Source of the DNA: Sphingomonas sp. IC081
Lineage (GTDB): Bacteria > Pseudomonadota > Alphaproteobacteria > Sphingomonadales > Sphingomonadaceae
Reading direction: 5' to 3'
Assembly: GCF_006874585.1 (NCBI RefSeq)
Contig: NZ_CP029762.1
Coordinates: 465,922 to 529,921 of the forward strand
Length of the DNA: 64,000 nt
Position numbers and translations under genes: made by a program. Position 1 is the stretch's first letter. Every line of letters begins with the position of its first letter. Positions 39,484-57,669 of this stretch are shown here, piece by piece. Under the pieces are notes generated by a model that was given only the letters and a program-made list of their open reading frames with translations, was not told where the DNA came from and did no database searches.

Positions 39484-39941
39484 AGTTCCAGTCATTTCCA
39501 CCACCCAGGCACGATACCGACGTTTCCGGCATCGGCGGCGTCGCCTTGCTGGCAACCCTTACCGCCGCGGAGATCGGCGAGCGCGCGCCGCCGGCGCAGG
39601 CGCGGGCGTTCTTTTCCTCGGTGGGCAGGCGCGTCGCCGCGCTGGTCCCGCTGGATGACGTCAGCGACGTCGGCGTGCTCGAAACCCGGATCAACGCCTA
39701 TTGGCGCGATCTGGACTGGGGCCAGATCGAACTCGTCGTGGGTGAGGATGCGATCGTCGTGCGCCATGCCCGCTTGCCGGAACCGGTGGTGCCCGACCTG
39801 CGTCATGCCTGGCAGGCGATGCTTCTGGGCATTCTCGAAGGCGCCTACGACGCCTGGTTCCGCGCGCTGGGCAGCGGCGCCGCGCTGACGACCAAGGCGC
39901 TTTGGAAGGATGACATCATGGAAGTGCGTCACGGTCGGTAA
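39480..39941 (+). CDS. bcsD: Cellulose synthase subunit BcsD (AcsD)
   Basis: 153 residues, the usual BcsD length (about 155). It begins with a Pro-rich segment and then helices GVALLATLTAAEIGERAPPA and QARAFFSSVGRRVAALVPLD, continues with the central ETRINAYWRDLDWGQIELVV and ends with GILEGAYDAWFRALGSG and LTTKALWKDDIMEVRHG. In Komagataeibacter BcsD forms a periplasmic octamer that helps align glucan chains into ordered fibrils. Its presence suggests crystalline cellulose and not an amorphous biofilm matrix. No signal peptide is seen, as in known BcsD. It overlaps bcsC by four bases. Confidence 0.9.
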   Translation: MKFQSFPPPRHDTDVSGIGGVALLATLTAAEIGERAPPAQARAFFSSVGRRVAALVPLDDVSDVGVLETRINAYWRDLDWGQIELVVGEDAIVVRHARLPEPVVPDLRHAWQAMLLGILEGAYDAWFRALGSGAALTTKALWKDDIMEVRHGR

Positions 39942-40019
39942 ATCTTTTGGCGGTTATGGGTTTACGGCCCAGGCAAACGACGCCGAATTCGTGACAGTCG
40001 CAAGGATTTGAAGACCAGA

Positions 40020-41084
40020 ATGACACGCCATACCCGGACCGAACCGTTTGCGGCCTTCCCCGCCCTCGATCGCCGGAAATTCACGCTCGGCGCGATGCTG
40101 GCGCTGACCGCTGCCTGCAACGGCGGCGCGCAGAGCCGCGATCCGGCGCGGGGGGGCTCGCGTATGCTGACCTGGACCGCCTATCGCGACAAGTACATGA
40201 TGGCCGACGGCCGCATCGTCGATACCGGCAACAAGGGGGTCAGCCATAGCGAAGGCCAGAGCTATGGCCTGATCTTTGCCTACAACGCCAATGATCGCGA
40301 CAGTTTCGAGCGGATCGCCCGCTGGACGCAGGAGCAGTTGTCGCGCAAGGACATCGCCCTCCATTGCTGGCGCTACGATCCCGCCGCCGCCGACCCGGTG
40401 GCGGACAAGAACAACGCCACCGACGGCGACCTTGTCATCGCCTGGGCGCTGCACCTGGCCGGAAAACGATGGGACCGGCCGGACTACATTGCACGCTCTG
40501 CGGCGATCCGCGCCGCCATTCGCAGCCACTGCGTGATCGAACGCTACGGGCGCCATCTGCTGCTGCCGGGCCTCCAGGGCTTTGTCACCGGCGGCGGCGT
40601 CACGCTTAACCCGTCCTACTTCGTGTGGCCTGCGCTCGACGCTTTTGCGCGCATCGACGGCGCCGGCATATGGGGACCGGTGATCGATGACTGCGCCCAG
40701 TTGCTGGGCCTTGCCCGCTTCGGCGCGCGCCATCTTCCCTGTGACTGGATGACCATCAGCGGCCCAGCACAGCTTGCCCCGGCAAGCGACAAGCCGCCCC
40801 GCTTCGGATACGATGCGATCCGCGTGCCGCTTTACGCCGCTTTGGGCAATCGCAAGGTGCTGGCAGCCGACGTCGCGGCCTATTGGCGCACCTGCCTTGC
40901 CGGGGGCAAGCCGATCCCGGCATGGGTCGACGTGGTCACCGGCGAGGAAGCGAACTACGCGCTTTCGAACGGCGGCGCGGCAGTGGCCGGGCTGCTGCTC
41001 GGCATGGCGCAGCCCGCCGCGCTCGACGACGACTACTATGCCGCCTCCCTGCAGCTGCTGGCAAAATTGCCGACTGGCCTGTAG
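40020..41084 (+). CDS. bcsZ: BcsZ endo-beta-1,4-glucanase, glycoside hydrolase family 8
   Basis: 354 residues from the ATG at 40020; a TTG at 40008 is in frame but sits too close to AAGGA. The N-terminus has RRKFTLGAMLALTAACNGG, resembling a Tat signal with a possible lipid-attachment Cys. GH8 landmarks: GVSHSEGQSYGLIFAYNAND with the proton-donor Glu, NNATDGDLVIAWALHLAGKR with the Asp region, the NPSYFVWPALDAFARIDGAG block and PPRFGYDAIRVPLYAAL. BcsZ trims or edits nascent glucan in the periplasm and is needed for proper fibres. It closes the operon, 78 bases after bcsD. Confidence 0.9.
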   Translation: MTRHTRTEPFAAFPALDRRKFTLGAMLALTAACNGGAQSRDPARGGSRMLTWTAYRDKYMMADGRIVDTGNKGVSHSEGQSYGLIFAYNANDRDSFERIARWTQEQLSRKDIALHCWRYDPAAADPVADKNNATDGDLVIAWALHLAGKRWDRPDYIARSAAIRAAIRSHCVIERYGRHLLLPGLQGFVTGGGVTLNPSYFVWPALDAFARIDGAGIWGPVIDDCAQLLGLARFGARHLPCDWMTISGPAQLAPASDKPPRFGYDAIRVPLYAALGNRKVLAADVAAYWRTCLAGGKPIPAWVDVVTGEEANYALSNGGAAVAGLLLGMAQPAALDDDYYAASLQLLAKLPTGL

Positions 41085-41171: not shown

Positions 41172-41492
41172 TTACTTGGGCGCGGGGACCTTCGCCAGAT
41201 CGGCATCGATCTTGGCCAGGACCTCGTCGGTGACGGTGTCGGCCGAATAGGACTGGATCTGCTTCAGGGTCATGCCCCGCGCCATTTCGATCTGCGGGTT
41301 GCTGACGAGATCGGGAAGATACTTCTGGAGGATCGCCTTCGTGGCCGGATTGTCGAGCAGGGTGCCGATCGAACTGTCCGACGTCGAAAAGGCGGGGGCC
41401 ACCGCGGCGGCCGCTGCGGTCCCGGCGCAGACCACCGAAAGCGGCGGGGCGACGAGGGCCATGGTTCCGGCGATCAGAATTTGACGAAGCAT
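41172..41492 (-). CDS. Small secreted protein carrying a module shared with the P450 C-terminus
   Basis: 106 residues from the ATG at 41492, which opens a signal peptide (MLRQILIAGTMALVAPPLSV, cleavage near residue 30). The mature part is one helical module (about 41-104: GTLLDNPATKAILQKYLPDL, then MARGMTLKQIQSYSADTVTD). Aligned without gaps to the last 64 residues of the P450 gene product at 45727, about 24 positions are identical by my count, so the two are homologous. No function is known to me; the pattern looks like a small helical domain of sphingomonad catabolic proteins. The gene is divergent from a TetR regulator, and two strong hairpins lie in the gap between them. Confidence 0.72.
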   Translation of the reverse strand: MLRQILIAGTMALVAPPLSVVCAGTAAAAAVAPAFSTSDSSIGTLLDNPATKAILQKYLPDLVSNPQIEMARGMTLKQIQSYSADTVTDEVLAKIDADLAKVPAPK

Positions 41493-41673: not shown

Positions 41674-42297
41674 ATGGCCGAAAACAAAAAACCGAATCGC
41701 GCTTTAGGCGATACCGTATCGCATAAATCCGAGCCACTGGCATCATCGAGATCGACCCATGCCCGCGCCTTGCGGTCCGGCAAGGCGCTGCAGGAAGCCA
41801 TGCTGCAACTCCTCCAGCGCAAGCCCTTCGACCAGATCACCGTGCGCGATATCTGCGCCGAGGCAAAGGTCCATTACGCCACCTTCTTCCGTCACCACGA
41901 AACCAAGGAATCGCTGCTCGACGCCATTGCCAAGGACGAGATCGCCCGCCTCAACCAGTTGACGCTGTCGATCCGCGATGCCGAAAGCTACGAAGCCGGT
42001 TTCGAGGGCCTCTGCGCCTATGTGGCAGAACACCGCGAACTCTGGGCGATCCTGCTCAACGGCGGCGCCGGCGGCGCCATGCGGGAGGAATGGCTGCGGG
42101 TCTCGATGGAAGTGGCCAAGGGCGAACAGCCGATCAACGCCTGGCTGCCCACCGAACTGGGAACGATCTGCGCCGCCTCGCTGATCGCGGAGACACTGGC
42201 CTGGTGGGTCGGCCAGCCGGAAGGCACCTACAGCGTCTCGCAAATCGCGCGCATCCTTTACCGGCTGCTGTCCACCTCGATCATGGCGCCGGATTGA
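41674..42297 (+). CDS. TetR-family regulator, candidate master regulator of the catabolic island
   Basis: 207 residues from the ATG at 41674. The DNA-binding domain is ALQEAMLQLLQRKPFDQITV followed by RDICAEAKVHYATFFRHHET, a divergent TetR pattern in which YATFFRHHE replaces the usual YYHFxSKE. The ligand part has no known specificity. The first about 32 residues are unlike a TetR start, and they contain, at DNA level, the palindrome GCGATACCGTATCGC found at four other places in the island. The true start may be further downstream, e.g. TTG at 41770, leaving the palindrome as an operator in front of the gene. The 3' end overlaps the convergent second TetR gene by 17 bases. Confidence 0.82.
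   Translation: MAENKKPNRALGDTVSHKSEPLASSRSTHARALRSGKALQEAMLQLLQRKPFDQITVRDICAEAKVHYATFFRHHETKESLLDAIAKDEIARLNQLTLSIRDAESYEAGFEGLCAYVAEHRELWAILLNGGAGGAMREEWLRVSMEVAKGEQPINAWLPTELGTICAASLIAETLAWWVGQPEGTYSVSQIARILYRLLSTSIMAPD
41708..41722. promoter_or_regulatory. Island palindrome, copy A (at the 5' end of the TetR gene)
   Basis: GCGATACCGTATCGC is a perfect 7-1-7 palindrome and the most symmetrical of five related copies in the island (others at 45585, 47776, 48095 and 57781). It lies inside or just upstream of the TetR coding region, depending on the start codon, which suggests autoregulation. Confidence 0.65.
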
Positions 42298-42991
42298 GGG
42301 GACTTCGCCCGGACGAAAGATCGCAGTCGCGATCCTGTGCGAGATCGAGCGTCAGCAGGCGCTCGATCGGCCTCAGCACCCGGGCGAGCGGGTCATGCTG
42401 CGGCGCGTCCGCTGCCAGATCGATCACCGGCGCCATGTACTGCGCCGCAAAGATCATGCTGAGGATCGAAAATGCGGCAAATTTCGGGACGCCGAGATCG
42501 GAATTGCCGAAACGCTCGGCGTCGTGGATGATCGGCAGCAGCGAGGCGAGAAACGGGCTCCAGACTTTGTCGAGAAGGTAGTCCTGTCGCTCTCCCGGCT
42601 CCGACATTTCACCGATGAACAGCGGCGCCAGTTCCGGAATCTCGATAGTGAGCCGCACGAAGGGGCGAAGCGCGGCGCTGGCCCTGTCCGGAAACGGCTG
42701 CGCCGCCGCGAACGCGCTGTCCATTGCCGCGCAGGCCTGATCGACCCGCAGGCCAAGTTCATCCACGAGCGCCTTCCACAGGCCGAGTTTCGAACCGTAG
42801 CGATAGAGGATCAGGGTCGGCGCGATACCGATCGAGGCTGCCAGTTCGCGAAGCCCCACGGCCGCGAACCCCCGCCGTGAAAAGGCCGCAAGCGCACTGC
42901 GTTCCAGACGGTCCAGGTCGGGGCCCTGCCCTTTCTTCGGGCGGGCCCGTTCCCGTCTGGCGACAGCGCCATCGTCTTGCTTCGTCATCAT
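42281..42991 (-). CDS. TetR-family transcriptional regulator
   Basis: 236 residues. After a charged leader (KQDDGAVARRERARPKKGQG), the DNA-binding domain reads LERSALAAFSRRGFAAVGLR and ELAASIGIAPTLILYRYGSK, a normal TetR helix-turn-helix. The C-terminal part resembles the CerR/YbiH type of ligand domain (FIGEMSEPGERQDYLLDKVW, which in other TetR members follows RPFVRLTIEIPELAPL). The effector is unknown. It is oriented toward the first TetR gene and overlaps its 3' end, and it is upstream of nothing on its own strand. Its targets are not evident. Confidence 0.85.
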   Translation of the reverse strand: MMTKQDDGAVARRERARPKKGQGPDLDRLERSALAAFSRRGFAAVGLRELAASIGIAPTLILYRYGSKLGLWKALVDELGLRVDQACAAMDSAFAAAQPFPDRASAALRPFVRLTIEIPELAPLFIGEMSEPGERQDYLLDKVWSPFLASLLPIIHDAERFGNSDLGVPKFAAFSILSMIFAAQYMAPVIDLAADAPQHDPLARVLRPIERLLTLDLAQDRDCDLSSGRSPLNPAP

Positions 42992-43027: not shown

Positions 43028-45544
43028 TTAGCGCGAGCCGAACGCAACGCGGAACGTCACGCCGAATTCACGCGGTGCGGTCACCGCCACACCGGCATAG
43101 CGGCTGCTGTAGACCGTCGATCCGATGCCCGAGACGCTGTAGGTCGGCGGGCTGAGATAGACGTCGGTCACCGAGGTGAACTGCGCGAGATCGTCCTGGC
43201 TCAGCAGCTTGGTCGTATCGAAGATGTTCTTCGCGTAGACCGAGACTTCCCATCCGCCATCCTGGGCCCTGAGGCCGCCGAACAGGTTCAGCAATCCATA
43301 GGCCTTGACGTTGTCATAGGGATTGTTCGAGTCGGTCCGGGACTTGCCCTTCCAGCTGAACAGCCCGCGCAGGTAACCATCGACATCGTTGTTCAGGGGC
43401 AGCGTGTATTCGGCCCTGAACACGCCCGACCATTCCGGCTGGAAGGTCGCCGACTGTCCGCCGCCCGCGCATTGCGCCACGCGCTCGCCGCCATAGGCCT
43501 GCTGCATCTGCGCCAGCGTCGGCGTGACCGTATCGGGAATGCCGTCGGAGCCGACCGCGCCGCTCTGGTTGTTCAGCGCGTCGGTGCAAGCCAGCAGCGC
43601 GTTGCCGATACGGCTGCGTGCGAAGTTGACCGTTGCCCCGAGATTCCAGCGCGGCGTCGGCGTGAAGGCGAGTTCGGCCTCGACGCCGTTGACCTTGATC
43701 GGCACCGCGCTGACGAAGTTGAAGTTGCCGATCGTCGGCGCGCCGGCCGAGTTGATGTTGATATAGGCGATCCCTGCCCCGCCGGAGCGGTAGGGGTAGT
43801 TCTTGTAGTCCTGATGGTACGCGGTCAGGTTGAACTGCACCTTCCGGTCAAACCAATCGGACTTCAAGCCGATCTCGTAGGACTTCGAACTTTCCGAAGG
43901 CAGCGAGATATGGGCGATCTCGTTCGCGGTGTAGTCCGCATGGGTGAAATTGCCGATCGCCACGACCGGGGGACGCCAGGAACTCCCCGTGGAGGCGTAG
44001 ACCATGAGGTCCGGCGTGAAGCGATGCTTGATGCTGGCGCTGTAGATCGTGGCGTTCTCGTTGACGTCCGACTGGGTGCCGTTCTGGCGCGTGCAGTTGC
44101 CCGCCGCGTACATTTCGGGCGTACAACTGATGAACAGGCCATCGCGGTTGTCGGTAAAGTGGATGCGCCGCAATCCGCCCGACAGTTCCGTCGCTTCGGT
44201 GAGGTGGAAGGTCACGTTGCCGAAGAAGGAATCTTCCGTCGGCGTACCCTTGGCAACGTAGATCGGGGTGTCCGTCACGCTCGGCGCGGCGATCGGGAAG
44301 CCGAGTCCGGCAAGGCGCAACTGGGTTATGCTGAGGTCGTCGAGGTTGGTCTGCGACGGCACCGCATAGTGGAAGTACCCGGCGACATAGTCGAACAGCC
44401 CGGCAACCCGGTCGAGGTTCTGCAGACGCACTTCATGGCTGCTGGTCGTGCCCTTGGTGTCCGCGATCTGCGCGACGGCGAGATCCGGGAAGAAGTTCGC
44501 GAGGTCGCGCACGCCGTAGCTATGGTACTTCTGCGAAGTCGCCGAACCCACGTAGATCAGGCGCTGGCCGAGGACATCGACTTCGGCATTCCAGTTGTAG
44601 AACTGGAACTTCTGCGAGGTCGTGCTCGGGCGCGTTTGCACCGAGAGGCGGTCGCTGAGGCCGATCTCGCCGTAATCCGGCGCGCCCGCGGAGGGCACAT
44701 AGTCGGGATCGTACTGGCTGACGGAACGCACCTGGTCGAACCGCGTGCCGGTGTTCTGCATGCCTTCGTAGAGGAAGCCGAGACGCAGCCACTGCGTCGG
44801 TTCGAAACGAACCGCGGCGCGGATGGCGTTGGTCTCGCTGCTCGGCTTCACGTCGCTGTTGACGCTGGTGACGCGGTTGCCGCGATCGAAGCTGTGGAGG
44901 CCGGCCACGCGGATGCCAAGCACATCGGAAATGATCGGAATGTTGAGCGCGCCGTTGATGTTGGCGGCCGAAGCCGAGGCCAGCGTGCCGGCCATGTAGC
45001 CGCCCGCTTCCACCAGATCCGGCTGGCGCGTGGTCGCCGTGATCGAACCCGACGGCGTCGAGCGCCCGCGCAAGGTGCCCTGCGGACCGCGCAGCACTTC
45101 GATCTGGCCAACGTCATACATCGTCTGCATGACGAAGTTCGAGGGAACCGGTGCGTCGTTGCGATAGTACTGGATCGTGCCGTTTTCGGCGCTGACGTTG
45201 ACGTCGTGGTTGACGCCGCGGATCGAGGACGAGGTGCCGATGCCGTTCGCGTTGGGCGTGAGCTGGAGACCCGGCACCACCGCGTTGATCTCGGTGAAGT
45301 TGCGGATGTTCAGCTTGGTGATCGAATCCGCCGTCACCGCGTTCACGACCAGCGGCACATCCTGAAGGCTCTCGTCGCGGCGGCGCGCCTGGACGATGAT
45401 CTCGGTCACAACCGAAGCATCGCTGGTGGCGCCGGCATGGGCGCCCACGGCGGCGGTGGTGCTTTCCGCCTCCTGCGCCCGCGCGGGACTGACCATGGCC
45501 AGCGCGCTCACGCCAGCAAGTATGAACGCGTCTTGTCTACGCAT
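43028..45544 (-). CDS. TonB-dependent outer membrane receptor
   Basis: 838 residues from the ATG at 45544 behind GGAGAGGA. A signal peptide ends VSPARAQE. The TonB box region and plug follow: SVVTEIIVQARRRDESLQDV, PLVVNAVTADSITKLNIRNF, and the plug core GTSSSIRGVNHDVNVSAENG with IEVLRGPQGTLRGRSTPSGS. The 22-strand barrel ends with FGVTFRVAFGSR. Receptors with this QDVP plug are very common in sphingomonads and take up plant-derived or aromatic compounds and not only siderophores. Its neighbours (P450, ferredoxin, glycosidases) suggest the same here. A promoter with the island palindrome lies directly upstream. Confidence 0.93.
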   Translation of the reverse strand: MRRQDAFILAGVSALAMVSPARAQEAESTTAAVGAHAGATSDASVVTEIIVQARRRDESLQDVPLVVNAVTADSITKLNIRNFTEINAVVPGLQLTPNANGIGTSSSIRGVNHDVNVSAENGTIQYYRNDAPVPSNFVMQTMYDVGQIEVLRGPQGTLRGRSTPSGSITATTRQPDLVEAGGYMAGTLASASAANINGALNIPIISDVLGIRVAGLHSFDRGNRVTSVNSDVKPSSETNAIRAAVRFEPTQWLRLGFLYEGMQNTGTRFDQVRSVSQYDPDYVPSAGAPDYGEIGLSDRLSVQTRPSTTSQKFQFYNWNAEVDVLGQRLIYVGSATSQKYHSYGVRDLANFFPDLAVAQIADTKGTTSSHEVRLQNLDRVAGLFDYVAGYFHYAVPSQTNLDDLSITQLRLAGLGFPIAAPSVTDTPIYVAKGTPTEDSFFGNVTFHLTEATELSGGLRRIHFTDNRDGLFISCTPEMYAAGNCTRQNGTQSDVNENATIYSASIKHRFTPDLMVYASTGSSWRPPVVAIGNFTHADYTANEIAHISLPSESSKSYEIGLKSDWFDRKVQFNLTAYHQDYKNYPYRSGGAGIAYININSAGAPTIGNFNFVSAVPIKVNGVEAELAFTPTPRWNLGATVNFARSRIGNALLACTDALNNQSGAVGSDGIPDTVTPTLAQMQQAYGGERVAQCAGGGQSATFQPEWSGVFRAEYTLPLNNDVDGYLRGLFSWKGKSRTDSNNPYDNVKAYGLLNLFGGLRAQDGGWEVSVYAKNIFDTTKLLSQDDLAQFTSVTDVYLSPPTYSVSGIGSTVYSSRYAGVAVTAPREFGVTFRVAFGSR

Positions 45545-45584
45545 CGAATCCTCTCCCGATATGATTTTTCTTGTCGAATTTTGT

Positions 45585-45608
45585 GCGCCACTGTGTCGCA
45601 TCGGTCAA
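45585..45608 (-). promoter_or_regulatory. Receptor promoter with island palindrome, copy B
   Basis: On the minus strand TTGACC (45603-45608) is a -35 element. The palindrome GCGCCACTGTGTCGC (45585-45599, plus strand) falls in the spacer right after it. A protein bound here would block the receptor gene, whose start codon lies about 40 bases further on. Confidence 0.65.
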
Positions 45609-45726: not shown

Positions 45727-47331
45727 TCAGGCCGCCGGCAGCACGGCGAGGTCGCGGTCGACGGCTTCGAGCGTTTCGTTGGTGAACTGGCCCGGCGCGA
45801 ACTTCTGGATCGCACGCAGCGTCATCGACTTGGCCATGCCGATGCGCTTGTCGGTGGTGATGCCGGGGAAGTGCTGTTCAAGCACGGCCTTGGCGCCGGG
45901 ATCGGCAAGGAGCACGGCAAGCTTGGTCACGCCGGTCGAGTAACCGGACGTCGCGACCGCCGCCGATGCCGGTGCCGGTGTCTCAGGCGCGACCGGCACT
46001 TCGGCTTCCGCGGTCTTCTGGATCACCGAGGGGCGTGTCGACGAGAGGTCAACGCCTTCGGCCGGGGTCAGCTTGAGGTGCAGTTCCGAAAGGCCGCGGA
46101 TGATGAAGCTCGGCTCGAAGTTGAGCTTGCGGGCACCGCGCGGGCCATGCACCGCAGGATCGAGATCGATGTCGGACGTGTATTGCAGCAGCTTTTCCAG
46201 AATGATGCGCACCTCCACGCGGGCGAGCGGCGCCCCCGCGCAAGTGTGCGCGCTGCGGCCGAACGCGACGTGTTCGCGAATTTTCGGACGGTCGAGCCTG
46301 AACGCCTGCGGGTCTTCCCAGCGCGCCGGATCGCGGTTGGCAGCGGCGATCGAAAGCATGATCTTCGTACCGGCCGGAACCGCCAGATCGCCGATCCTGG
46401 TATCGCGCCGCGCCAGGCGGGCGGTCTGCTTGGTCGAACCTTCGAGGCGCAGGACTTCCTCGATCAGTGCCGGAATGAGCTTGGGATCGGCGCGCAGCCG
46501 GTCCTGCAGCCCCGGCTGATCGACGATGTAGCGCATCGCATTGCCCAGCAGCTTGGCGCTGGTGTCCTGCCCCGCCCCGAACATGAACATGCCCAGCTTG
46601 ATGATCGCCATCTCGTCAGGAAGCGTGCCGTCGGGATAGAGCGCGTTGGACAGTTCGGAGAGGATGTCCTCGCGCGGATTGGCGCGGCGATCGGCCACAT
46701 ATTGCGCGAAGTACCCGCCCATGATCACGAACGGGTGGTCTTCGGCATTGAGGTCGAGTTCGCCGTCGAGATTGCCGGGAGGCGGCGCGTTCTCGATGAG
46801 GTCCATGAACTTCTGGCGATCCTCGGCGGGAATGCCGAGGAGATCGGCGATAACCAGCGTGACGAACGGCGTCGCGATCGTCCTGACCAATTCCACGCCG
46901 CCATTGGCCACTGCGTCCCGCACCAGTTCGTCCGAGAAGGCCTGGATGAACTCCTCGTTGGCCTTGAGGCGCGAGGGCGTGAACAGGCGGTTGACAAGCG
47001 ATCGCAGCTGCAGGTGCGGATTGTCATCGAGATTGACCAGCAGGTCGCCGCCGTGAAACGCGTCGCGGTGCGCCTCGATCTGGGCGGTGATGTCGGATCC
47101 GTGCGGCGTGAACGGCAGCGGGGCGGAAGCGCCTTGCAGGCCGATAATCGCCGAGAAGTCTTCCGAATTGCGCATGATCTCGAGGGTTTCCTCGAAACCC
47201 ATGACCATCAGATAATCCTTGCCCTGGGGCTGGTAGACCTGGCCCTTGCTCCGTACCGCCTCGAAATAGGCATAAGGATCGACAAGGATCTCGTGGTCGG
47301 TGAAATAGTCCCGATCGGCCAGTTCCGTCAT
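45727..47331 (-). CDS. Cytochrome P450 with an extra C-terminal module
   Basis: 534 residues, about 120 longer than soluble bacterial P450s. The start at 47331 is preceded by GGGA. The P450 part (about 1-415) has all key motifs: the I-helix oxygen-activation site FGAGQDTSAK (about 254), the ExxR of EEVLRLEGSTKQTARLARRD (about 292) and the haem loop FGRSAHTCAGAPLARVEVRI with the axial Cys at about 364. A Pro/Ala/Thr-rich linker (about 425-460) leads to a helical module (about 466-533: LAVLLADPGAKAVLEQHFPG, MAKSMTLRAIQKFAPGQFTN) homologous to the secreted protein at 41172. The ferredoxin gene directly upstream should supply electrons. The substrate is probably the aglycone of an imported glycoside; this is inference. 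Confidence 0.92.
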   Translation of the reverse strand: MTELADRDYFTDHEILVDPYAYFEAVRSKGQVYQPQGKDYLMVMGFEETLEIMRNSEDFSAIIGLQGASAPLPFTPHGSDITAQIEAHRDAFHGGDLLVNLDDNPHLQLRSLVNRLFTPSRLKANEEFIQAFSDELVRDAVANGGVELVRTIATPFVTLVIADLLGIPAEDRQKFMDLIENAPPPGNLDGELDLNAEDHPFVIMGGYFAQYVADRRANPREDILSELSNALYPDGTLPDEMAIIKLGMFMFGAGQDTSAKLLGNAMRYIVDQPGLQDRLRADPKLIPALIEEVLRLEGSTKQTARLARRDTRIGDLAVPAGTKIMLSIAAANRDPARWEDPQAFRLDRPKIREHVAFGRSAHTCAGAPLARVEVRIILEKLLQYTSDIDLDPAVHGPRGARKLNFEPSFIIRGLSELHLKLTPAEGVDLSSTRPSVIQKTAEAEVPVAPETPAPASAAVATSGYSTGVTKLAVLLADPGAKAVLEQHFPGITTDKRIGMAKSMTLRAIQKFAPGQFTNETLEAVDRDLAVLPAA

Positions 47332-48109: not shown

Positions 48110-48183
48110 ACAAAGAGGCGATTTCGGGAGAATGGCCAGCAGCGCCTCGAGCAGGTGCGGCTGCGGATGCAATTGGCAGGCAG

Positions 48184-51100
48184 ATGACATCCATGGCGAA
48201 GAACGGGCAATTTCGGACAAGGTCGGCGCTGGTCAGGCTGGCGCTGTCGCTATCGGTTGCCGCTGTTTCGGGGCCGGTCTCCGCCCAGTCAGGGTCCCCG
48301 GCCGCGCCCGATCAGGCTGACCCGCTTGCAGGACAGTTCAGCGACCCGCCGATGGAGGCGCGTCCGCGGGTCTGGTGGCACTGGATCAACGGCAACATCA
48401 CCGTGGACGGGCTGCTCAAGGACCTCGCCTGGATGAAGCGGATCGGCATCGGCGGCGCGCAGGCATTCGACGTCAATCTCCAGAGCCCGCAAATCGTCGA
48501 CCAGCGACTGGTCTACATGACGCCCGCCTGGCGGTCTGCCTTCAGGGCCGCAGCGCGCGAGGCGGATCGCCTTGGCATCGAATTGGCGATTGCCTCATCG
48601 CCGGGCTGGTCCGAGACCGGCGGCCCCTGGGTGACGCCCGCCGACGGCATGAAAAAGCTGGTGTGGAGCGAAGTGACCGTGAGCGGCGGCAAGCGCCTCG
48701 CCCGCCCGCTCCCCATGCCGCCCTCGGTGACCGGCCCGTACCAGTCGATCGCGGCGACTTCGGGCACCAACTCGACGATCAACGAAAAGGCACCCGACGT
48801 TCCCGCGCCGTTCTACCGCGATGCCGTGGTTGTCGCGGTGCCCGCAGAACCGGCCCTTGCGGATGGCGCCGCAGCCACGTTTACGAGCGGCGAAGGACAG
48901 CCGGCCGATGCCGCAGCACTGACGGACGGCGACCTCGAAACCGGTGCCGACCTGCCGAAAGTCGCCAGGCAGCCGACACTCCTTACAGCCCGCTATCCGG
49001 CGGCCCGGACGATCCGTGCGCTCACCCTGTTCGTGCCCGGCGGCGCGGGCAAGTTCATCGGCGCCAACCTCAAGGCCAGCCTGGAAGCGCAAACCGCTGC
49101 CGGGCAGTGGACAACCGTAACCGACATTCCGCTCGGACGCGTACCGACGACCCGCAGCTTCGCGCCGGTGACGGCACGGGCCTTCCGCATCGTGTTCCAG
49201 GACGCCAGCAGCCTGCCGAACTTTGCCCCGCCGCCTGCGGGCGTCGACCTTTCGGCGCTTGCAGCCGGCTTTTCCGGCGGCAAGCCGGCGGCCTCGATCC
49301 GGGTCGCAGAATTCGCGCTGTCCGCCGAAGAGCGCGTCAACCGCGCCGAGGCCAAGGCCGGCTTCGACATCGTGCCGGACTATTACGCGCTCGACGCCGG
49401 TCTTGCCAATTCCGCCGGCGTGGCGCCGGACCGGATCATCGACCTGACCCCGCGCCTCCACGCCGACGGCACGCTCGACTGGACCGCGCCACCGGGGCGC
49501 TGGCGCATCATCCGCTTCGGCTATTCGCTTGTGGGCACGATGAACCATCCTGCTCCGCTGGAGGCAACCGGCCTCGAAGTGGACAAGTACGATGGCGAAG
49601 CCGTGCGCCGCTACATGGATCACTATCTGGCGACCTATCGCCAGACGGTGGGCGCGGACCTCATCGGCGCCAAGGGCGTGCGCGCCATCCTCACTGACAG
49701 CATCGAGGTGGGCGCGGCGAACTGGACGCCGCGGATGGTCGCGCAGTTCAAGCGGCTGCGCGGTTATGATCCGGTCCCCTGGATGGCCGCGCTGACCGGG
49801 ACGATCGTCGGCTCGCGGCAGGACAGCGAGCGCTTCCTGCATGATTTCCGGCGGACCCTGGCCGATCTGCTGGCCAGCGAGCACTACGGCACGGTTGCCA
49901 GCGCAGCGCACGACAACGGGCTGGTCGTCTACGGCGAGGCGCTGGAAGATCACCGCCCGCAGCTTGGCGACGACATGGCCATGCGCCGCTGGACCGACGT
50001 GCCGATGGCGGCGATGTGGGCGTTCCAGCGTGACCGAGGGCCCAAGCCGACCTACCTTGCCGACATGAAGGGCGCGGCATCGGTCGCCCACCTTTACGGG
50101 CAGCGAACCGTCGCGGCGGAATCGCTGACCTCGATGCTGGCGCCCTGGGCCTTTGCGCCGGGCGATCTCAAGCGGATGATCGATCTCGCGTTCGCCTCCG
50201 GCATCAATCGCCCGGTCATCCATACCTCCGTCCATGTGCCGGTGGACGACCGGAAGCCGGGTCTGCGGCTGTCGATCTTCGGTCAGGATTTCAACCGCAA
50301 CGAAGCCTGGGGCGAACTGGCGCGGCCGTGGATGGACTATGTCGCGCGCAATTCGCTGATGCTCCAGCAGGGCGTCAACCGGGCCGACCTTGCCTATTTC
50401 TACGGCGAGGAAGCCCCGCTGACCGCGCTGTTCGGCGACAAGCCGGTCAGCGAGGTTCCGGCCGGGACCGCGTTCGACTTCGTGAACGCCGATGCCCTGA
50501 TCGATGCGCTGGCCAATGACGGCGGCGATCTGGTGACGGCGGGCGGGGCACGATACCGCGCGCTGTACCTCGGCGGCACCGCCGGGAGGATGAGCCTTCG
50601 TGTGCTGGCGCGCATCGCCGACCTTGTGGAGGCGGGCGCGACCGTCATCGGCGCGCCGCCGGTGGGCGATCCCGGCCTTGGCGCCGACCCTGCCCGCTAC
50701 CGGTCGCTGGTGCAGAAACTGTGGCCGGGCGCGGCGGTCAATCCGGTCGGCCGGGGCCGGGTGATCGCGACCGGCGACCTGGCCGCAGGTCTTGCGCAGG
50801 CGGGTATCGCGCCCGATTTCACCTTCTCGGGCGGAGCGCCGGGGGCCGTGCTTCCCTTTGTCCACCGCAAGCTGGCGGACGGGGACAGCTACTTCATCTC
50901 CAATCAGTCGAACCGGGCCGAGACGATCACCGCGCATTTCCGGGTCCCCGGCAAGGAAGCCGAACTCTGGCATGCCGAAACCGGCCGCTCGGAGCCGGTG
51001 AGCTTCACGGCCGCGCAAGGGGTGACCTCGGTTCCGCTCACGCTCGGCCCGGACGAGGCGGTGCACGTGGTGTTCCGCAAGGACAGTGCGGCTACCTCCC

Positions 51101-51612
51101 GCACCGTCGCGCCGGTCGAGCTGCGCGAAGCGGCGGTCCTTGGCGGGGCCTGGGACGTCACGTTCGAGCCGGGGCGCGGCGCGCCGCCGCAAGTCCGGCT
51201 GGCCGAACTGGCCCCGCTCGGCGCGAACGCCGACCCCGCGATCCGCTATTTCTCGGGGATTGCCACGTATACCAAGGCATTCACGGCGCCGCGCGGGTGG
51301 AAAAAGGGCATGCCGCTGCTGCTCGATCTCGGCGAGGCGCGCGAAATCGCCGAAGTCCGCGTCAACGGACAGCTGGCCGGATACGGCTGGCACCAGCCTT
51401 ACCGCATCGACATCGGCGCGCAGGCCCGCCCCGGCGGGAACCGCCTGACGATCCGCGTCGCGAACCTGTGGGTCAACCGGCTGATCGGCGACGCCCAGCC
51501 CGGCGCCGCAAAAGTGACCTGGACCGCCACGGCGACCTACCGGAAGGACGCGCCGCTGCGCCCGTCCGGTCTGCTGGGCCCCGTGCGCCTGCTGGAACAA
51601 CGCCGGGACTGA
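48184..51612 (+). CDS. Secreted glycoside hydrolase family 106 (alpha-L-rhamnosidase-like)
   Basis: 1142 residues from the ATG at 48184; ATG 48193 and a GTG at 48103, lying inside the operator, are alternatives. A signal peptide ends GPVSAQSGS. The N-terminal GH106 signature is very clear: FSDPPMEARPRVWWHWINGN, ITVDGLLKDLAWMKRIGIGG, then YMTPAWRSAFRAAAREADRL and ASSPGWSETGGPWVTPADGM. The central part has GAKGVRAILTDSIEVGAANW and VASAAHDNGLVVYGEALEDH, which contain conserved acidic residues. The C-terminal part is a jelly-roll carbohydrate-binding-like domain (PLLLDLGEAREIAEVRVNGQ). The known members release terminal alpha-L-rhamnose from pectins, flavonoids or saponins. It leads a four-gene co-directional group. 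Confidence 0.87.
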   Translation: MTSMAKNGQFRTRSALVRLALSLSVAAVSGPVSAQSGSPAAPDQADPLAGQFSDPPMEARPRVWWHWINGNITVDGLLKDLAWMKRIGIGGAQAFDVNLQSPQIVDQRLVYMTPAWRSAFRAAAREADRLGIELAIASSPGWSETGGPWVTPADGMKKLVWSEVTVSGGKRLARPLPMPPSVTGPYQSIAATSGTNSTINEKAPDVPAPFYRDAVVVAVPAEPALADGAAATFTSGEGQPADAAALTDGDLETGADLPKVARQPTLLTARYPAARTIRALTLFVPGGAGKFIGANLKASLEAQTAAGQWTTVTDIPLGRVPTTRSFAPVTARAFRIVFQDASSLPNFAPPPAGVDLSALAAGFSGGKPAASIRVAEFALSAEERVNRAEAKAGFDIVPDYYALDAGLANSAGVAPDRIIDLTPRLHADGTLDWTAPPGRWRIIRFGYSLVGTMNHPAPLEATGLEVDKYDGEAVRRYMDHYLATYRQTVGADLIGAKGVRAILTDSIEVGAANWTPRMVAQFKRLRGYDPVPWMAALTGTIVGSRQDSERFLHDFRRTLADLLASEHYGTVASAAHDNGLVVYGEALEDHRPQLGDDMAMRRWTDVPMAAMWAFQRDRGPKPTYLADMKGAASVAHLYGQRTVAAESLTSMLAPWAFAPGDLKRMIDLAFASGINRPVIHTSVHVPVDDRKPGLRLSIFGQDFNRNEAWGELARPWMDYVARNSLMLQQGVNRADLAYFYGEEAPLTALFGDKPVSEVPAGTAFDFVNADALIDALANDGGDLVTAGGARYRALYLGGTAGRMSLRVLARIADLVEAGATVIGAPPVGDPGLGADPARYRSLVQKLWPGAAVNPVGRGRVIATGDLAAGLAQAGIAPDFTFSGGAPGAVLPFVHRKLADGDSYFISNQSNRAETITAHFRVPGKEAELWHAETGRSEPVSFTAAQGVTSVPLTLGPDEAVHVVFRKDSAATSRTVAPVELREAAVLGGAWDVTFEPGRGAPPQVRLAELAPLGANADPAIRYFSGIATYTKAFTAPRGWKKGMPLLLDLGEAREIAEVRVNGQLAGYGWHQPYRIDIGAQARPGGNRLTIRVANLWVNRLIGDAQPGAAKVTWTATATYRKDAPLRPSGLLGPVRLLEQRRD

Positions 51613-51642: not shown

Positions 51643-54375
51643 GTGGGCGATTTCAAGCGGGTACTGACAGGCCTGATGCTGGGTTCGGCAATCGCCGCCA
51701 CAGCCATATCCCCCGCGGCCGTGGCGGCGGACCGCACTGCGTCGCAGGCAGGCACGCAGGCAGCCAGGCAGCCAGGAACCGGGCGAGCGGCAATCGACCT
51801 GTCGCATGGCTGGCGCTTCCACTTCGGCGATGCTCCGGCGGCGGTCACCGCCACCGGCTTCGACGATCGGGACTGGGAGCAGGTCTCGGTCCCGCACAGC
51901 TGGAACCGCATCGGGGCCTATGCCCAGAAGCGCGGCGCCGAGACCGACAACCGGCAGGGCCTGGGCTGGTACCGCCTGCAGGTCGATGCGCCAAAGGCGA
52001 AGCCGGGCGACCGCCAGTATCTGGACTTTGCAGCGGTCGGCAAGCTGGCCGAAGTCTGGGTAAACGGCCACCATGTCGGCACCCACAAGGGCGCTTTCGC
52101 CCGCTTCCGCCTCGACGTTACCGATGCCTGGAAGCCGGGCCAGCGCAATCTGGTCGTGGTCAGCGCCGACAACAGCAAGGTGGAGCCCGGCAGCTCCACC
52201 TCCGAAGTCATTCCGCTCTCCGGCGATTTCTTCGTGCATGGAGGCATTTACCGCGAGGTTGCACTGCTCCAGCTTCCCGCCGCGTCCATCGATCCGCTCG
52301 ATTACGGCGGACCGGGCGTCTACGCGCATGCGACGAGGATTTCCGCCGAAAGCGCGACCGTCGAGGTGCGCACCCGCTTGCGCAATGCCGGCCCGGCCCC
52401 GCGCAGCCTCACCCTCGCGACCGAGATCCGCGACGCGCGCGGCAAGGTCGTCGCCCGCACCGTCCAGCCGGTCACCCTGGCGAGCGGAACCGGCGAGCAG
52501 CGCACGGCGCTCGATCTGGCCCGTCCCCATCGCTGGGACGGACGGGCCGATCCCTACCTCTATTCGGTCACCGCCACCCTTTCGGACGGCAAGGCCGTGC
52601 TGGACCGGGTGTCGCAGCCGCTGGGCCTTCGCACCTTCCGGTTTGATGCCGACAAGGGCTTTTTCCTGAACGGGCGGCATGTGAAGCTGCGCGGTGTCTC
52701 GCGCCATCAGGACGCGCTCGGCTCGGGCTGGGCACTGACGCCCGCGCAGCACGCGCAGGACATGGCGCTGGTCGAGGAACTCGGGGCCAACACCATCCGC
52801 CAGGCCCATTACCAGCACGCCGATGCCTGGTCCGATCTCGCCGACAAGGCCGGCATGGTGGTCTGGGCCGAGCTGCCTTACGTCACCACCCCCAGCATTA
52901 CCGGCGGCAAGGGCTCGGATGCGCTCTGGGCCAATGCCGAGCAGCAATTGCGCGAGCAGATCCGGCAGAACTACAACCACCCCGCGATCCTGATGTGGTC
53001 GGTCGGCAACGAAGTGGATTCGGCCAAGGGTTTCGGCCAGAAAGGCGCGCCGCCGCAGCCGCAGGCCCTGCTCGCCCACCTCAATGCCATCGCCCGGCAG
53101 GAAGACCCCGATCGCCCGACCACTTTTGCCGATTGCTGCGAAGGGCTGACGCTGGTCCAGACCGCCGGAGAGACGCTGGCCGGAACCACCGACCTGATCG
53201 GCTACAACCGCTACTACGGCTGGTATTATCCAAAGCCCCTGGAGGTCCGTCAGGACCTTGGCGACACGCTCGACAAGCTCCACCGCGAGCATCCGGGGCT
53301 GCCGCTTTCGCTCAGCGAATACGGCGCGGGCGGCGCGATCAGCCAGCACAGCGACGACGTGCGCAGCGGTTATGTCAATTTTGTCGGCCGTCCCCATCCC
53401 GAAGAGTACCAGGCATGGGTCCACGAGCAGTCCTGGCCGAGCATCGCCGCCCGCGATTTCGTGTTTGCCAGCTGGGTCTGGGCGATGTTCGACTTTGCCA
53501 GCGACCTGCGTGACGAAGGCGACGCGGTCGACCTCAACGACAAGGGGCTGATCACGGCGGACCGCAAGACCCGCAAGGATGCCTTCTGGTTCTACAAGGT
53601 GGCCTGGAGCGACAGCCCTGCCCTGCACTTTGCCGGAACGCGCTATCTGGACCGCGCCTATCCGGTGATGGACGTCAAGGCCTACGCCACCGCCCCGTCC
53701 GCGCGCCTGACGATCAACGGCAGGCCGGTCGGCGAAGTGCCCTGCCGGGACTTTGTCTGCGAATGGAAAGACGTGGCGCTGCGGCCCGGCGCCAATGCCG
53801 CCGTGGTGACGACCACGCAGGGCGGCAAGACCCTGACCGACCGCGCCACCTGGAACGGGCCCGACGTGGAGCGCGGCGGACTGCGCATCAATGCGGGTAG
53901 CCCAGCCGGTCTTGAACTGCCCGGTCTTGAACTGGCCGGCGGGCATCTCGGCAGCCGCCACTTCGGTTCGGACACGTTCGTGACAGGCGGCAAGCCGGTC
54001 GTGCTCAACCTTGTCGGTTTCGGCGGGCGCTCGATGGCGCCGATCCGCACGGTCGATGCAGCCGACCCGGCGTTGTTCGACTACTGGCGCGACGGGGATG
54101 CCTATAGCTACGACATTCCCCTGCCGAACGGCAGCTGGACGGTGACGCTGCACCTCTTCGAACCGCGCAAGACCGCCTCGTCCGATCAGGCCCTCACCGT
54201 CACCGCGAACGGAGAGGCGGTCATCCAGGGACTTAACATCGCCAGGGCGGCCGGGGCGCCGCTCAAGGAACTGCTCCGCAGCTTCCCGGTCACTGTCCGC
54301 AACGGCCGCCTCAAGCTCGATTTCACCAGCGTGTCGGGCAACGCCGCGCTGGCCGGAATCGAGATCGCGCATTGA
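51643..54375 (+). CDS. Secreted GH2 beta-galactosidase/glucuronidase-like enzyme with malectin domain
   Basis: 910 residues from a GTG at 51643 behind GGGAGAG. A signal peptide is followed by the GH2 sugar-binding domain (WRFHFGDAPAAVTATGFDDR, VSVPHSWNRIGAYAQKRGAE), an immunoglobulin-like domain and a TIM barrel starting VKLRGVSRHQDALGSGWALT. The acid/base Glu457 is in MWSVGNEVDSAKGF and the nucleophile Glu559 in SLSEYGAGGAIS. A DUF4982-like region follows and the last about 170 residues (GLRINAGSPAGLELPGLELA onward) form a malectin-type carbohydrate-binding domain. It acts outside the cytoplasm on beta-linked galactose, glucuronic acid or similar sugars. The stop overlaps a TTG of the next frame, so the genes are tightly linked. 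Confidence 0.9.
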   Translation: MGDFKRVLTGLMLGSAIAATAISPAAVAADRTASQAGTQAARQPGTGRAAIDLSHGWRFHFGDAPAAVTATGFDDRDWEQVSVPHSWNRIGAYAQKRGAETDNRQGLGWYRLQVDAPKAKPGDRQYLDFAAVGKLAEVWVNGHHVGTHKGAFARFRLDVTDAWKPGQRNLVVVSADNSKVEPGSSTSEVIPLSGDFFVHGGIYREVALLQLPAASIDPLDYGGPGVYAHATRISAESATVEVRTRLRNAGPAPRSLTLATEIRDARGKVVARTVQPVTLASGTGEQRTALDLARPHRWDGRADPYLYSVTATLSDGKAVLDRVSQPLGLRTFRFDADKGFFLNGRHVKLRGVSRHQDALGSGWALTPAQHAQDMALVEELGANTIRQAHYQHADAWSDLADKAGMVVWAELPYVTTPSITGGKGSDALWANAEQQLREQIRQNYNHPAILMWSVGNEVDSAKGFGQKGAPPQPQALLAHLNAIARQEDPDRPTTFADCCEGLTLVQTAGETLAGTTDLIGYNRYYGWYYPKPLEVRQDLGDTLDKLHREHPGLPLSLSEYGAGGAISQHSDDVRSGYVNFVGRPHPEEYQAWVHEQSWPSIAARDFVFASWVWAMFDFASDLRDEGDAVDLNDKGLITADRKTRKDAFWFYKVAWSDSPALHFAGTRYLDRAYPVMDVKAYATAPSARLTINGRPVGEVPCRDFVCEWKDVALRPGANAAVVTTTQGGKTLTDRATWNGPDVERGGLRINAGSPAGLELPGLELAGGHLGSRHFGSDTFVTGGKPVVLNLVGFGGRSMAPIRTVDAADPALFDYWRDGDAYSYDIPLPNGSWTVTLHLFEPRKTASSDQALTVTANGEAVIQGLNIARAAGAPLKELLRSFPVTVRNGRLKLDFTSVSGNAALAGIEIAH

Positions 54376-54410: not shown

Positions 54411-55943
54411 ATGTTGGATCGCCGCATGTTTCTGGCATCAGGCGCCGCCGCCGCGGCCTTGTCGGCCAGCGGGGCTCGGGCTGCCCGCGGGGCCGCCGCC
54501 CTTGCTGGCGAAACGGTGCGGGTCGATACCCGCACGGTTGCGGGCGCCCTGCCCCACGTCTGGGAGGAATGTGTCGGATCGGACCGCGCGGCGATCACCA
54601 TGCGCGAGGAGTGGCGGCAGGACATGCGGCTCGCCGTGGCGGAGGCGGGCATCAAGCGCGCACGCTTCCACGGCATCTTCAACGACGAACTGGGGGTGTT
54701 CGGCAAGAGCATCCTCGAGATGCGCCGCAACGGCGGACCGAACTGGCTGAACGTCTACCGCGTCTACGACGGCCTGCTCGACCTTGGCGTGTCGCCCTAT
54801 GTGGAACTGAGCTTCATGCCCGGCAAGCTCGCTTCCGGGAAAACCCAGTTCGGCTTCTACGGCGGCAATATCACGCCGCCGACCTCGGACGCCGAATTTG
54901 CCGGATTCGTCAGGTCTTTCACCACCGCGATGGTCGATCGCTACGGGCTGGAGGCCGTGCGCAGCTGGCCCTTCGAGGTGTGGAACGAACCCAACCTCTC
55001 GTTCTTCTGGACCGCCGACAAGCAGCGCTATTTCGACATGTACAAGGCCGTCGCGGTCGCGATCAAGTCGGTCGACCCGCAGATCAAGGTCGGCGGCCCC
55101 GCCACCTCGAAAACGGCATGGATCGGCGATTTTGCCGAGTGGTGCGCGGCCAACAACGCCCCCGTCGACTTCTTCGCCACCCATGTCTACGCCGGTGACA
55201 ACCAGGACGAGGTCTTCGGCAAGGGCAGCCCGCGCCGCAGCGTCAATGCCGTCATCCCCGACGCGCTTGCCGATGCCCGGCGCACGATCGATGCCGGGCC
55301 GTTCGCCGGCAAGCCGATGTGGCTGTCCGAATGGTCGTCCGACAGCCCGGCGATGATCGCCCACGTCATCGCCGGCGGCATGGCGCACTGCGCGGGCATG
55401 TCGCAATGGACGCTGAGCGGCATGTACGAGGAACTGGGCGTCGACGACTACATGCTGAAGGAAGGCTCGATGGGCTGGAGCATGATGATCGACGGCATCG
55501 CCAAACCTTCGTTCAATACCTACCGGCTGCTGCACCGGCTCGGCACCGAGCGGCTCGCCGCGCAGGGCCCGGCGCTGGCCGCGAAGGACAAGCGAGGCAG
55601 GATCTGCGCACTCGTGTGGAATCTCGCCGAAGTCGATCAGCCCGGCGGCATTCCCGGCATGACCTCCGAACGCAAGATCGTCGGCGGTGCCAGGCGCCTG
55701 ACCGTGCAGTTCGACGGGCTGAAGGGCGGACGGACCGCGCAGGTACACTATGTCGACTGGGAGCGCGGCTCGCCGATGCCGGCCTGGCGGGCGATGGGCT
55801 CGCCCCGGTACCCCTCGCGCGCGCAGATCGCGCAGTTGCGGCAGGTCTCGCGGCCGGTGGTGGAAACGCGCCGCCTCGGCGCCGACGCCTCGCTCACGCT
55901 CGACCTGCCCGCCGAAGGGCTCGCCCTGGTCGAGATCGCCTGA
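54411..55943 (+). CDS. Secreted GH39-type glycosidase (beta-xylosidase/arabinosidase-like)
   Basis: 510 residues from the ATG at 54411, with GGAGAG upstream; a TTG at 54372 overlapping the previous stop is the other option. The N-terminus (LDRRMFLASGAAAAALSASG) is Tat-like. The mature enzyme is a TIM barrel with the Clan A pattern: acid/base Glu193 in FEVWNEPNLSFFW and nucleophile Glu307 in WLSEWSSDSP. Other GH39 blocks are RFHGIFNDELGVFGKSILEM and PVDFFATHVYAGDNQDEVFG. A small beta-sandwich closes the protein. It could remove xylose, arabinose, fucose or a related sugar; together with GH106 and GH2 it suits stepwise trimming of a mixed glycoside. Confidence 0.87.
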   Translation: MLDRRMFLASGAAAAALSASGARAARGAAALAGETVRVDTRTVAGALPHVWEECVGSDRAAITMREEWRQDMRLAVAEAGIKRARFHGIFNDELGVFGKSILEMRRNGGPNWLNVYRVYDGLLDLGVSPYVELSFMPGKLASGKTQFGFYGGNITPPTSDAEFAGFVRSFTTAMVDRYGLEAVRSWPFEVWNEPNLSFFWTADKQRYFDMYKAVAVAIKSVDPQIKVGGPATSKTAWIGDFAEWCAANNAPVDFFATHVYAGDNQDEVFGKGSPRRSVNAVIPDALADARRTIDAGPFAGKPMWLSEWSSDSPAMIAHVIAGGMAHCAGMSQWTLSGMYEELGVDDYMLKEGSMGWSMMIDGIAKPSFNTYRLLHRLGTERLAAQGPALAAKDKRGRICALVWNLAEVDQPGGIPGMTSERKIVGGARRLTVQFDGLKGGRTAQVHYVDWERGSPMPAWRAMGSPRYPSRAQIAQLRQVSRPVVETRRLGADASLTLDLPAEGLALVEIA

Positions 55944-56856: not shown

Positions 56857-57669
56857 TCAGGCCGCCATTCCGCCTTCGAGCAGCAAAGTGCTGCCGGTCA
56901 TGAACATGGCCATGTCCGAGGCGCAGAACAGGATCGCCCGGGCAATGTCGTCGGCCACGCCGACCCGTCCGAGGCGGCTGCCGCCGATGCCGGGGATCGG
57001 GCAGTTCCTGATGGTTTCCTCGTCCCATTCGGCGATGAACATGGTCTTCTCGGTCAGCGAGAATCCCGGTGCCACCCCCAGCACGCGGATGCCGTGCCCG
57101 CCCAGTTCGATCGCCAGTTGCCTGGTCAGGCCGACAACGCCGTGCTTCGAACTGCAATAGGCAGCCTGCCCTTCGGAAATGCCGCGCACGCCGGCCAGCG
57201 AGGCGACGTTGACGATCACCCCGCCGCGCCCCCGCGCGATCATCCGCCGCGCCGCTTCCCTGGCGCCGACAAAGGTGCCGCGCAGATTGATCGCCAGGAC
57301 GTTATCGAACTCCTCGACGTCGAGGTCGAGCAGCGGCTGAAACGACGGGATACCGGCATTGTTGACCCAGATGTCGAGCGTGCCGAAGCGGCTCTCGGCA
57401 AGGTCGGCAGCCGCCACGATCGACGCCGGATCACCCGCGTCGAGGCGGATCGAGACGACATCGACGCCGAACCGTCCGGCCAGTTCGCGGGCAGTTGCGG
57501 CGGCGGCCTCTTCATCGATATCGGCGATCAGCACCGACGCGCCGGCTTCGGCAAGCCGCCGCGCCGCGGCCTTGCCCAGCCCCCACGCCGCCCCCGTGAC
57601 AACCGCGCCCCGGCCCTTCAGCGAGGTCAGCTGATCGAGCGAGCGATCCGAAACGTCTGGCACTGGCAT
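56857..57669 (-). CDS. Short-chain dehydrogenase/reductase
   Basis: 270 residues from the ATG at 57669, eight bases after AGGAG; the ATG at 57675 is closer to that site than usual. Classical SDR features: cofactor loop TGAAWGLGKAAARRLAEAGA, VLIADIDEEAA (an Asp after the second strand, favouring NAD), NNAGIPS, catalytic Ser in VNVASLAGVRG and the YxxxK pair in AAYCSSKHGVVGLTRQLAIE. It oxidises or reduces a secondary alcohol/ketone. Its place opposite another SDR, across an island palindrome, links it to aglycone or sugar oxidation; the substrate is not identifiable. Confidence 0.88.
   Translation of the reverse strand: MPVPDVSDRSLDQLTSLKGRGAVVTGAAWGLGKAAARRLAEAGASVLIADIDEEAAAATARELAGRFGVDVVSIRLDAGDPASIVAAADLAESRFGTLDIWVNNAGIPSFQPLLDLDVEEFDNVLAINLRGTFVGAREAARRMIARGRGGVIVNVASLAGVRGISEGQAAYCSSKHGVVGLTRQLAIELGGHGIRVLGVAPGFSLTEKTMFIAEWDEETIRNCPIPGIGGSRLGRVGVADDIARAILFCASDMAMFMTGSTLLLEGGMAA

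Follow-up and report, generated by a model that had tools for sequence, protein, structure and literature searches.

A gene for a small protein of 106 amino acids (41172..41492, reverse strand) lies in the window, which is the whole 64,000-nucleotide stretch of Sphingomonas sp. IC081 DNA that was analysed. Judged by eye, residues 1-29 of this protein resemble a signal peptide, and residues ~41-104 form a module that is found again at the C-terminus of a cytochrome P450 (45727..47331, reverse strand). This second copy (45730..45936, reverse strand) was delimited by alignment to the free protein. It is joined to the P450 core by a Pro/Ala-rich linker (approximate limits 45937..46062, reverse strand), which was recognised from its sequence; a model of the enzyme, poor overall, gives it low pLDDT values and lacks secondary structure there. 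The P450 was identified with Pfam (p450, 5.5e-24), and comparison with its relatives makes the ATG at 47331 (534 aa), not the GTG at 47472, the most likely start codon. Its nearest solved chain is CYP150A6 (6dcd, 424 aa); the match (E 1.6e-112) covers query residues 6-423 only and ends where the linker begins. On the basis of the family match and this solved relative, the enzyme is labelled CYP150-like.

The reverse strand also encodes a 2Fe-2S ferredoxin, the probable partner of the P450 (47387..47704, start approximate; Pfam Fer2 1.5e-06), as well as a TonB-dependent receptor (43028..45601) and a TetR-type regulator (42281..42991), both recognised with Pfam. Another TetR-type regulator (41674..42297, forward strand; Pfam) adjoins the free module gene, and relatives of it were found near the free gene in loci L027, L038, L039 and L061 and also on L148. 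Further along the forward strand, Pfam identified a GH106 alpha-L-rhamnosidase (48154..51612, start approximate; 4.3e-300), a GH2 enzyme with a signal-like start by eye (51643..54375) and a GH39 enzyme with a Tat-like signal by eye (54411..55943, start approximate). An SDR oxidoreductase (56857..57630, reverse strand) has an 81% identical relative on S. yanoikuyae pKN1 (L027), where GH106, GH2, GH39, TonB receptor, P450, ferredoxin, TetR, SDR and free module genes all lie within 24 kb. Since the GH106, GH2, GH39, TonB receptor, ferredoxin and P450 genes of the window recur on pKN1 as relatives in the company of the module gene, a rhamnose-containing plant glycoside would be a fair guess for the substrate of the pathway. 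On pKN1 the free module gene is followed immediately by a second hypothetical gene (L027 12370-12822). In the window, a stretch of cellulose synthase-like genes recognised by eye (31541-41084) ends in a GH8 gene directly beside the island, and the free module gene is located at this junction.

It had been claimed from the letters alone that residues ~41-104 of the free protein align without gaps to the end of the P450, with about 24 identities. BLASTP returned a single significant alignment, ungapped, between residues 26-104 of the free protein and 502-580 of the P450 as numbered in its 581-aa ORF translation, with 29/79 identical and 49/79 positive residues (E 1e-16 for one pairwise comparison). 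The local score of 144 was reached by none of 20,000 shuffles, the best of which scored 59. The BLASTP similarity begins ~15 residues before the start proposed earlier, in an Ala-rich stretch that was excluded as evidence; in the region originally named, 24 columns are invariant between both copies, and the motifs MTL-x2-IQ and D-x-DLA-x2-PA are both present. The two copies are also placed in two compartments as had been claimed, one with an export signal and the other behind the Pro/Ala linker on a cytoplasmic oxygenase. With the free protein as query, no family was found in Pfam-A and NCBIfam up to E 10 within HMMER's filters, in agreement with the view that the module has no named family. 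A profile built from both copies detected only these two in the window's own genome at E <= 10, and no further match in the window, the GH2 enzyme at 51643..54375 included.

Structure prediction, which had been suggested for both copies, succeeded for the module and not for the whole P450. The AF2 model of the module, a helical domain of 65 residues, was made from 49 window and locus sequences and is confident (pLDDT 89, pTM 0.77). The model of the whole P450, based on four sequences, is poor (pLDDT 42) and no guide to the placement of the module, with pLDDT values of 57-84 for the 10-residue blocks from residue 461 on. Of 25 related P450 cores, 8 carry the tail. The tree requires 4 changes (3-5 in bootstraps, at least 3 being forced by well-supported branches), the tail is missing from cores up to 70% identical, and genome G548 holds tailed and untailed P450 copies on one contig. 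The existence of close cores without the tail, together with 3-5 gains or losses, indicates that the tail is dispensable for the P450 and a removable extra. Several of the untailed P450 matches are listed with an internal stop.

Free, fused and signal-less copies of the module

The original prediction regarded the module as specific to this catabolic system. A profile search of sphingomonad genomes, as proposed with it, recovered the module on seven types of enzyme. With the two-copy profile, matches at E <= 0.001 were found in 22 of 119 genomes of the same family, a count that includes the window's own genome and locus L023. The latter (E 9.8e-4) is a partial match inside a longer protein that appears unrelated by eye; we consider it a probable chance hit, and it was removed before profiles were built. 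At E <= 1e-4, a 23-sequence profile matched 7 of 289 genomes of the class, and four of the seven belong to other families. In addition, a scan of genome contigs yielded 43 loci in Sphingomonadales, in Caulobacter (three loci from two strains) and in one MAG named only as Alphaproteobacteria; this set relies on the single pattern Q[IV]xMAR[GS]MT, so that divergent copies are under-represented. As the module occurs across many sphingomonad genomes and in some Caulobacter, on seven enzyme types and beside differing GH clusters, an island-specific module was rejected. The domain is real and broader than the island, and neither of the libraries searched has a family model for it.

Most copies are stand-alone proteins. 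This applies to 41 of the 43 pattern-scan loci, the other two being tails of carboxylesterases, and 39 of the 41 free loci passed a crude signal-peptide test (L056 and L061 failed). The 37 genomes behind these loci contain 82 module matches. Frame length and, for some of them (part of the 57 included), a reading of the sequence served to class 57 as stand-alone copies, 8 as signal-less paralogs and 17 as fused copies. The 17 fused matches belong to 14 proteins, namely six P450s, two type-B carboxylesterases, three GH5 enzymes with two copies each, and one each of a GST-like protein with a Tat-like signal, an esterase and a ThuA protein. In the ThuA protein the module lies towards the N-terminus, and the match is weak (E ~1e-5) and broken. 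Outside the 37-genome set, the module precedes a PQQ-type propeller in L035, and plasmid loci contain further P450 and GH5 carriers. Tandem C-terminal copies were seen in four GH5-type enzymes (L069 1-1941, L154 2294-4252, L155 729-2714 and L115 6417-8453), the GH5 assignment resting on a Pfam run for L069. At L152 2206-3635, the GST-like protein with a Tat-like signal and a C-terminal module has another, small module protein as its neighbour; export would be unusual for a GST.

These fusions bear on a possible role of the module in carrying small molecules, in which the free protein would bind a hydrophobic aglycone in the periplasm and hand it on, and the fused copy would do the same for the P450. 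Such a role would suit a probable glycoside pathway that includes a TonB receptor and has the module on either side of the membrane, as well as the TetR genes that adjoin the free gene at several loci. The carboxylesterase, ThuA and PQQ fusions, however, share no single obvious ligand, and the fold is a small helical bundle without a demonstrated pocket. We consider a carrier function unlikely.

The signal-less paralogs are eight small proteins, most of which start like M-D-A-P-L-Y-P-P-A. All match profile A2. The E values of seven range from 5e-10 to 2e-5, whereas L026, the eighth, had been built into A2, and its score with that profile is therefore given by construction. For this reason the evidence for the paralogs is quoted from profile A4 and a 67-sequence profile, from which L026 is absent. 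By profile comparison, the seven other paralogs matched the module with a probability of 97% (E 1.6e-11) using A4 and 98% (E 2.5e-12) using the 67-sequence alignment, and the paralog profile matched the GH3 domains described below with 22% only.

All eight paralogs have a GH2 match within 1.5 kb, where 0.03 would be expected, on the same strand and with the paralog upstream. In seven of the eight (L064 8298-8624, L160 10933-11268, L162, L165, L046, L052 and L026) the stop codon of the paralog overlaps the GH2 start (ATG or GTG) by 4 nt, and these seven GH2 enzymes have an N-terminal twin-arginine motif. At L059, an overlapping GH2 start with a twin-arginine motif was not found. The Tat system exports folded proteins, so the paralog could be carried out of the cytoplasm by its GH2. 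The overlap can be read directly from the sequence, and from it we infer that the paralog is possibly a Tat passenger subunit of its GH2.

The same overlap with a Tat-like GH2 in 7 of 8 loci would suggest a stoichiometric complex, and thereby a module that purely docks or oligomerises, assembling partner enzymes or itself with no substrate contact; the signal-less paralog would then be a folding or export companion of its GH2. A generic role of this kind agrees with the very unlike carrier enzymes and the two compartments, and with the four GH5 proteins that hold two copies each. Against it, the P450 copy in the cytoplasm would not be expected to encounter the exported protein, which makes one shared assembly unlikely in the window. 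Together with the mutant data on a gut glucuronidase given below, this leaves pure docking as a possibility on the doubtful side.

Relation to C-terminal domains of glycoside hydrolases

With the AF2 model of the module, all Foldseek matches had E values above 1; among the 20 weak ones are the C-termini of two GH3 chains (7ms2 and 9lql) and two small DUF1858 entries. In VIA-align over 42 chains the highest scores were obtained by 7ms2 (Z 6.5), 9lql (6.3) and 8j9f (6.1), with 66-70 residues aligned at an rmsd of 2.8-5.2, followed by 2k5e (5.8), 2k53 (5.4) and the N-terminus of YtfE (5fnn, 5.0). Values of 6-6.5 are below the tool's caution level of 8, and by its own rule the top four, 2k5e included, are tied. 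The module therefore resembles the GH3-type C-terminal domain modestly and in a non-discriminating way, and because 2k5e ties with the GH3 chains, fold alone does not decide kinship.

The entries 2k5e and 2k53, which we take to be DUF1858 entries, raised the alternative that the module is a distant DUF1858- or ScdA_N-like domain with a role in redox or metal repair. Structural matches to these entries and to the YtfE N-terminus speak for it, and DUF1858 (PF08984) and the YtfE N-terminal domain do have a similar small helical fold (Z 5.0-5.8), but without profile similarity. hhalign against 27 DUF1858 sequences gave a probability of 0.3-0.5% and a score of ~11, after which homology to DUF1858 was dropped. 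Moreover, none of 67 module sequences contains a cysteine, whereas each of the 27 DUF1858 sequences has at least two. This alternative is very improbable.

Comparison of sequence profiles pointed to the glycoside hydrolases. When A2 was searched against PDB sequences, the top match was residues 680-748 of 7ms2, the C-terminus of BglB (E 0.0027 for the whole sequence and 0.022 for the domain), and the C-terminus of the GH2 Rh3 glucuronidase (7kgz 659-733) came fourth at E 0.062. The narrower profile A4 gave E 0.018 for 7kgz, but only 1.9 for 7ms2, and its match to 7kgz spans just the last 35 residues. A2 also matched a GDSL esterase, a coiled-coil and other PDB entries, which were discounted because these matches were partial, short or internal. 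The free protein alone gave no match in phmmer, and the 7ms2 domain as query gave none against the plasmids. In hhalign, A2 aligned to the two GH3 domains with a probability of 94.9% and a score of 41.6 over 56 columns, compared to a mean of 9.1 and a maximum of 15 for 100 column shuffles; A4 and the 67-sequence alignment reached 89% and 93%, respectively. The domain of 8j9f alone was weak, with 7.7 bits against 5.8 for the best shuffle. For the matched fragment of 7kgz, which had been picked as a top hit, 0 of 500 shuffles reached its score.

In our view, these profile comparisons establish that the module is homologous to the C-terminal domain of the GH3 pair headed by 7ms2. Homology is probable for the PSTG1 domain alone, and possible to probable for the C-terminal domain of the GH2 enzyme Rh3. 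In GH3 BglB of C. thermocellum (7ms2) and in PSTG1 of Paenibacillus (8j9f/9lql) the domain is C-terminal, like most of the fusions found here, and the 7ms2 domain differs by a 10-residue insertion. In the Bacillota, whose distribution of the domain is known here from solved structures alone, it is part of the GH3 chain, whereas the sphingomonad module is free or attached to other enzymes. None of the copies that were read lies on a GH3 enzyme, and the seven neighbouring GH3 enzymes checked all lack the module. The likeness to Rh3 is a weak sequence match at the extreme C-terminus of a domain of ~150 residues. This kinship with a domain of Bacillota GH3 enzymes likewise contradicts a module specific to one catabolic system.

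In a 2023 article in J Biochem, the C-terminal domain of PSTG1 was reportedly called a lid for aglycone recognition. PSTG is a Paenibacillus beta-glucosidase that cleaves sesaminol triglucoside, which is resistant to other beta-glucosidases (PMC3622683). 7kgz is the Rh3 GUS of R. hominis, an FMN-binding GH2 beta-glucuronidase, and mutants of Rh3 indicated that its C-terminal domain is critical for processing triclosan-glucuronide; the C-terminal domains of such glucuronidases are described as mobile and structurally unresolved (PMC8748916). The effect in Rh3 concerns substrate processing, and the accessible part of that report notes no structural change for the mutants (PMC8748916), which argues against a module that only docks.

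Glycoside hydrolase genes near the module

The linkage of module genes to catabolic gene clusters, which had also been proposed, was borne out in the 37 genomes. A GH3 gene lies within 8 kb of at least 14 of the 57 free copies (expected 1.25), the lower bound arising because 150 of 187 matches were listed. GH106 was found within this distance of 12 of 57 (expected 0.44) and GH2 of 9 of 57 (expected 0.76). For GH2, 74 of 107 matches were used; the 33 weak or overlapping fragments omitted lie, by inspection, beyond 8 kb of any free copy. At least 29 of the 57 free copies have a GH3, GH106 or GH2 gene within 8 kb, and 28 have none of these among the matches listed. As a control, an aminotransferase family was near 0 of 57 free copies, with 0.9 expected, both among the matches listed. 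The P values (GH3 1e-11, GH106 1e-14, GH2 3e-8) treat related genomes as independent, and since these are not, the ratios matter more. In one further region (G541:C78:52354-55021), a GH106 gene near a module P450 is matched in two separate frames.

Several plasmid copies of the free gene are located in clusters of Sphingobium isolates from tomatine-treated soil. On a plasmid of TomTYG72 the free gene lies directly between GH3 and GH39, and in TomMM15 it has the same position with a regulator gene interposed. In TomTYG65 and TomTYG64 it lies beside a gene in the place of TetR and a pair of GH3 and GH106-like genes. S. herbicidovorans, which is not a tomatine-soil isolate, has the TomTYG65/64 gene order, with TetR and rhamnosidase annotated.

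In Sphingobium RC1, GH3, GH39, GH78 and GH106 enzymes of two clusters deglycosylate steroidal saponins, and by the gene numbers a single gene, 01943, fits between SpGH3-3 and SpGH39-1 (PMC10653915). Judging by the gene order of TomTYG72, gene 01943 probably encodes the module, although the cluster of RC1 is described as chromosomal and that of TomTYG72 lies on a record named plasmid; the number 01943 is absent from the main text of PMC10653915. Recombinant SpGH3, SpGH39 and SpGH106 were active on saponins, and the module protein is unmentioned in the accessible part of the report (PMC10653915), which suggests that it is no absolute requirement. The saponin clusters of RC1 contain GH3, GH39 and GH106, and other isolates of that study have the free module gene among such genes; the window in comparison has GH106, GH2 and GH39 plus a P450.

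A possible accessory role of the module

We tentatively read the module as a detachable accessory domain, lid or docking, of enzymes that degrade plant glycosides, a reading that we consider plausible though still open to doubt. The best-supported mechanism would be that of an accessory lid or docking domain acting in trans or by a tether. In sphingomonads most copies appear to have been separated from the enzymes and exported as small proteins, often with GH3, GH106 or GH2 genes beside theirs. As a signal-less paralog, the module would be made as a small protein in translational coupling with a GH2 that has a Tat-like signal, and it would have been appended to other enzymes as well, the island P450 among them. 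The module may pack next to the opening of its catalytic partner's active site, acting in trans as a free protein and held there by the linker in a fusion, and may thereby help to hold or admit an aglycone that is bulky and hydrophobic. For the window this would mean that the free copy aids the exported GH106, GH2 and GH39 enzymes and that the tethered copy offers the released aglycone to the P450.

A more far-reaching version of this accessory role, which we put forward as doubtful, is that the module is a sphingomonad subunit of glycoside hydrolases that acts in trans. The lid of the Bacillota would have been split off, would be exported alone or with a Tat-exported GH2 and shared among enzymes that strip glycosides such as saponins, and would have been fused again to a P450 attacking the same aglycone. 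One recognition module would then serve both halves of the pathway.

If true, the accessory role would provide a family for a recurrent 'hypothetical protein' in clusters that degrade plant toxins such as saponins and glycoalkaloids, and reconstituted enzymes of such clusters may have been assayed without their natural partner. It would also supply a small stand-alone relative of the mobile, unresolved C-terminal domain in FMN-binding glucuronidases of the gut.
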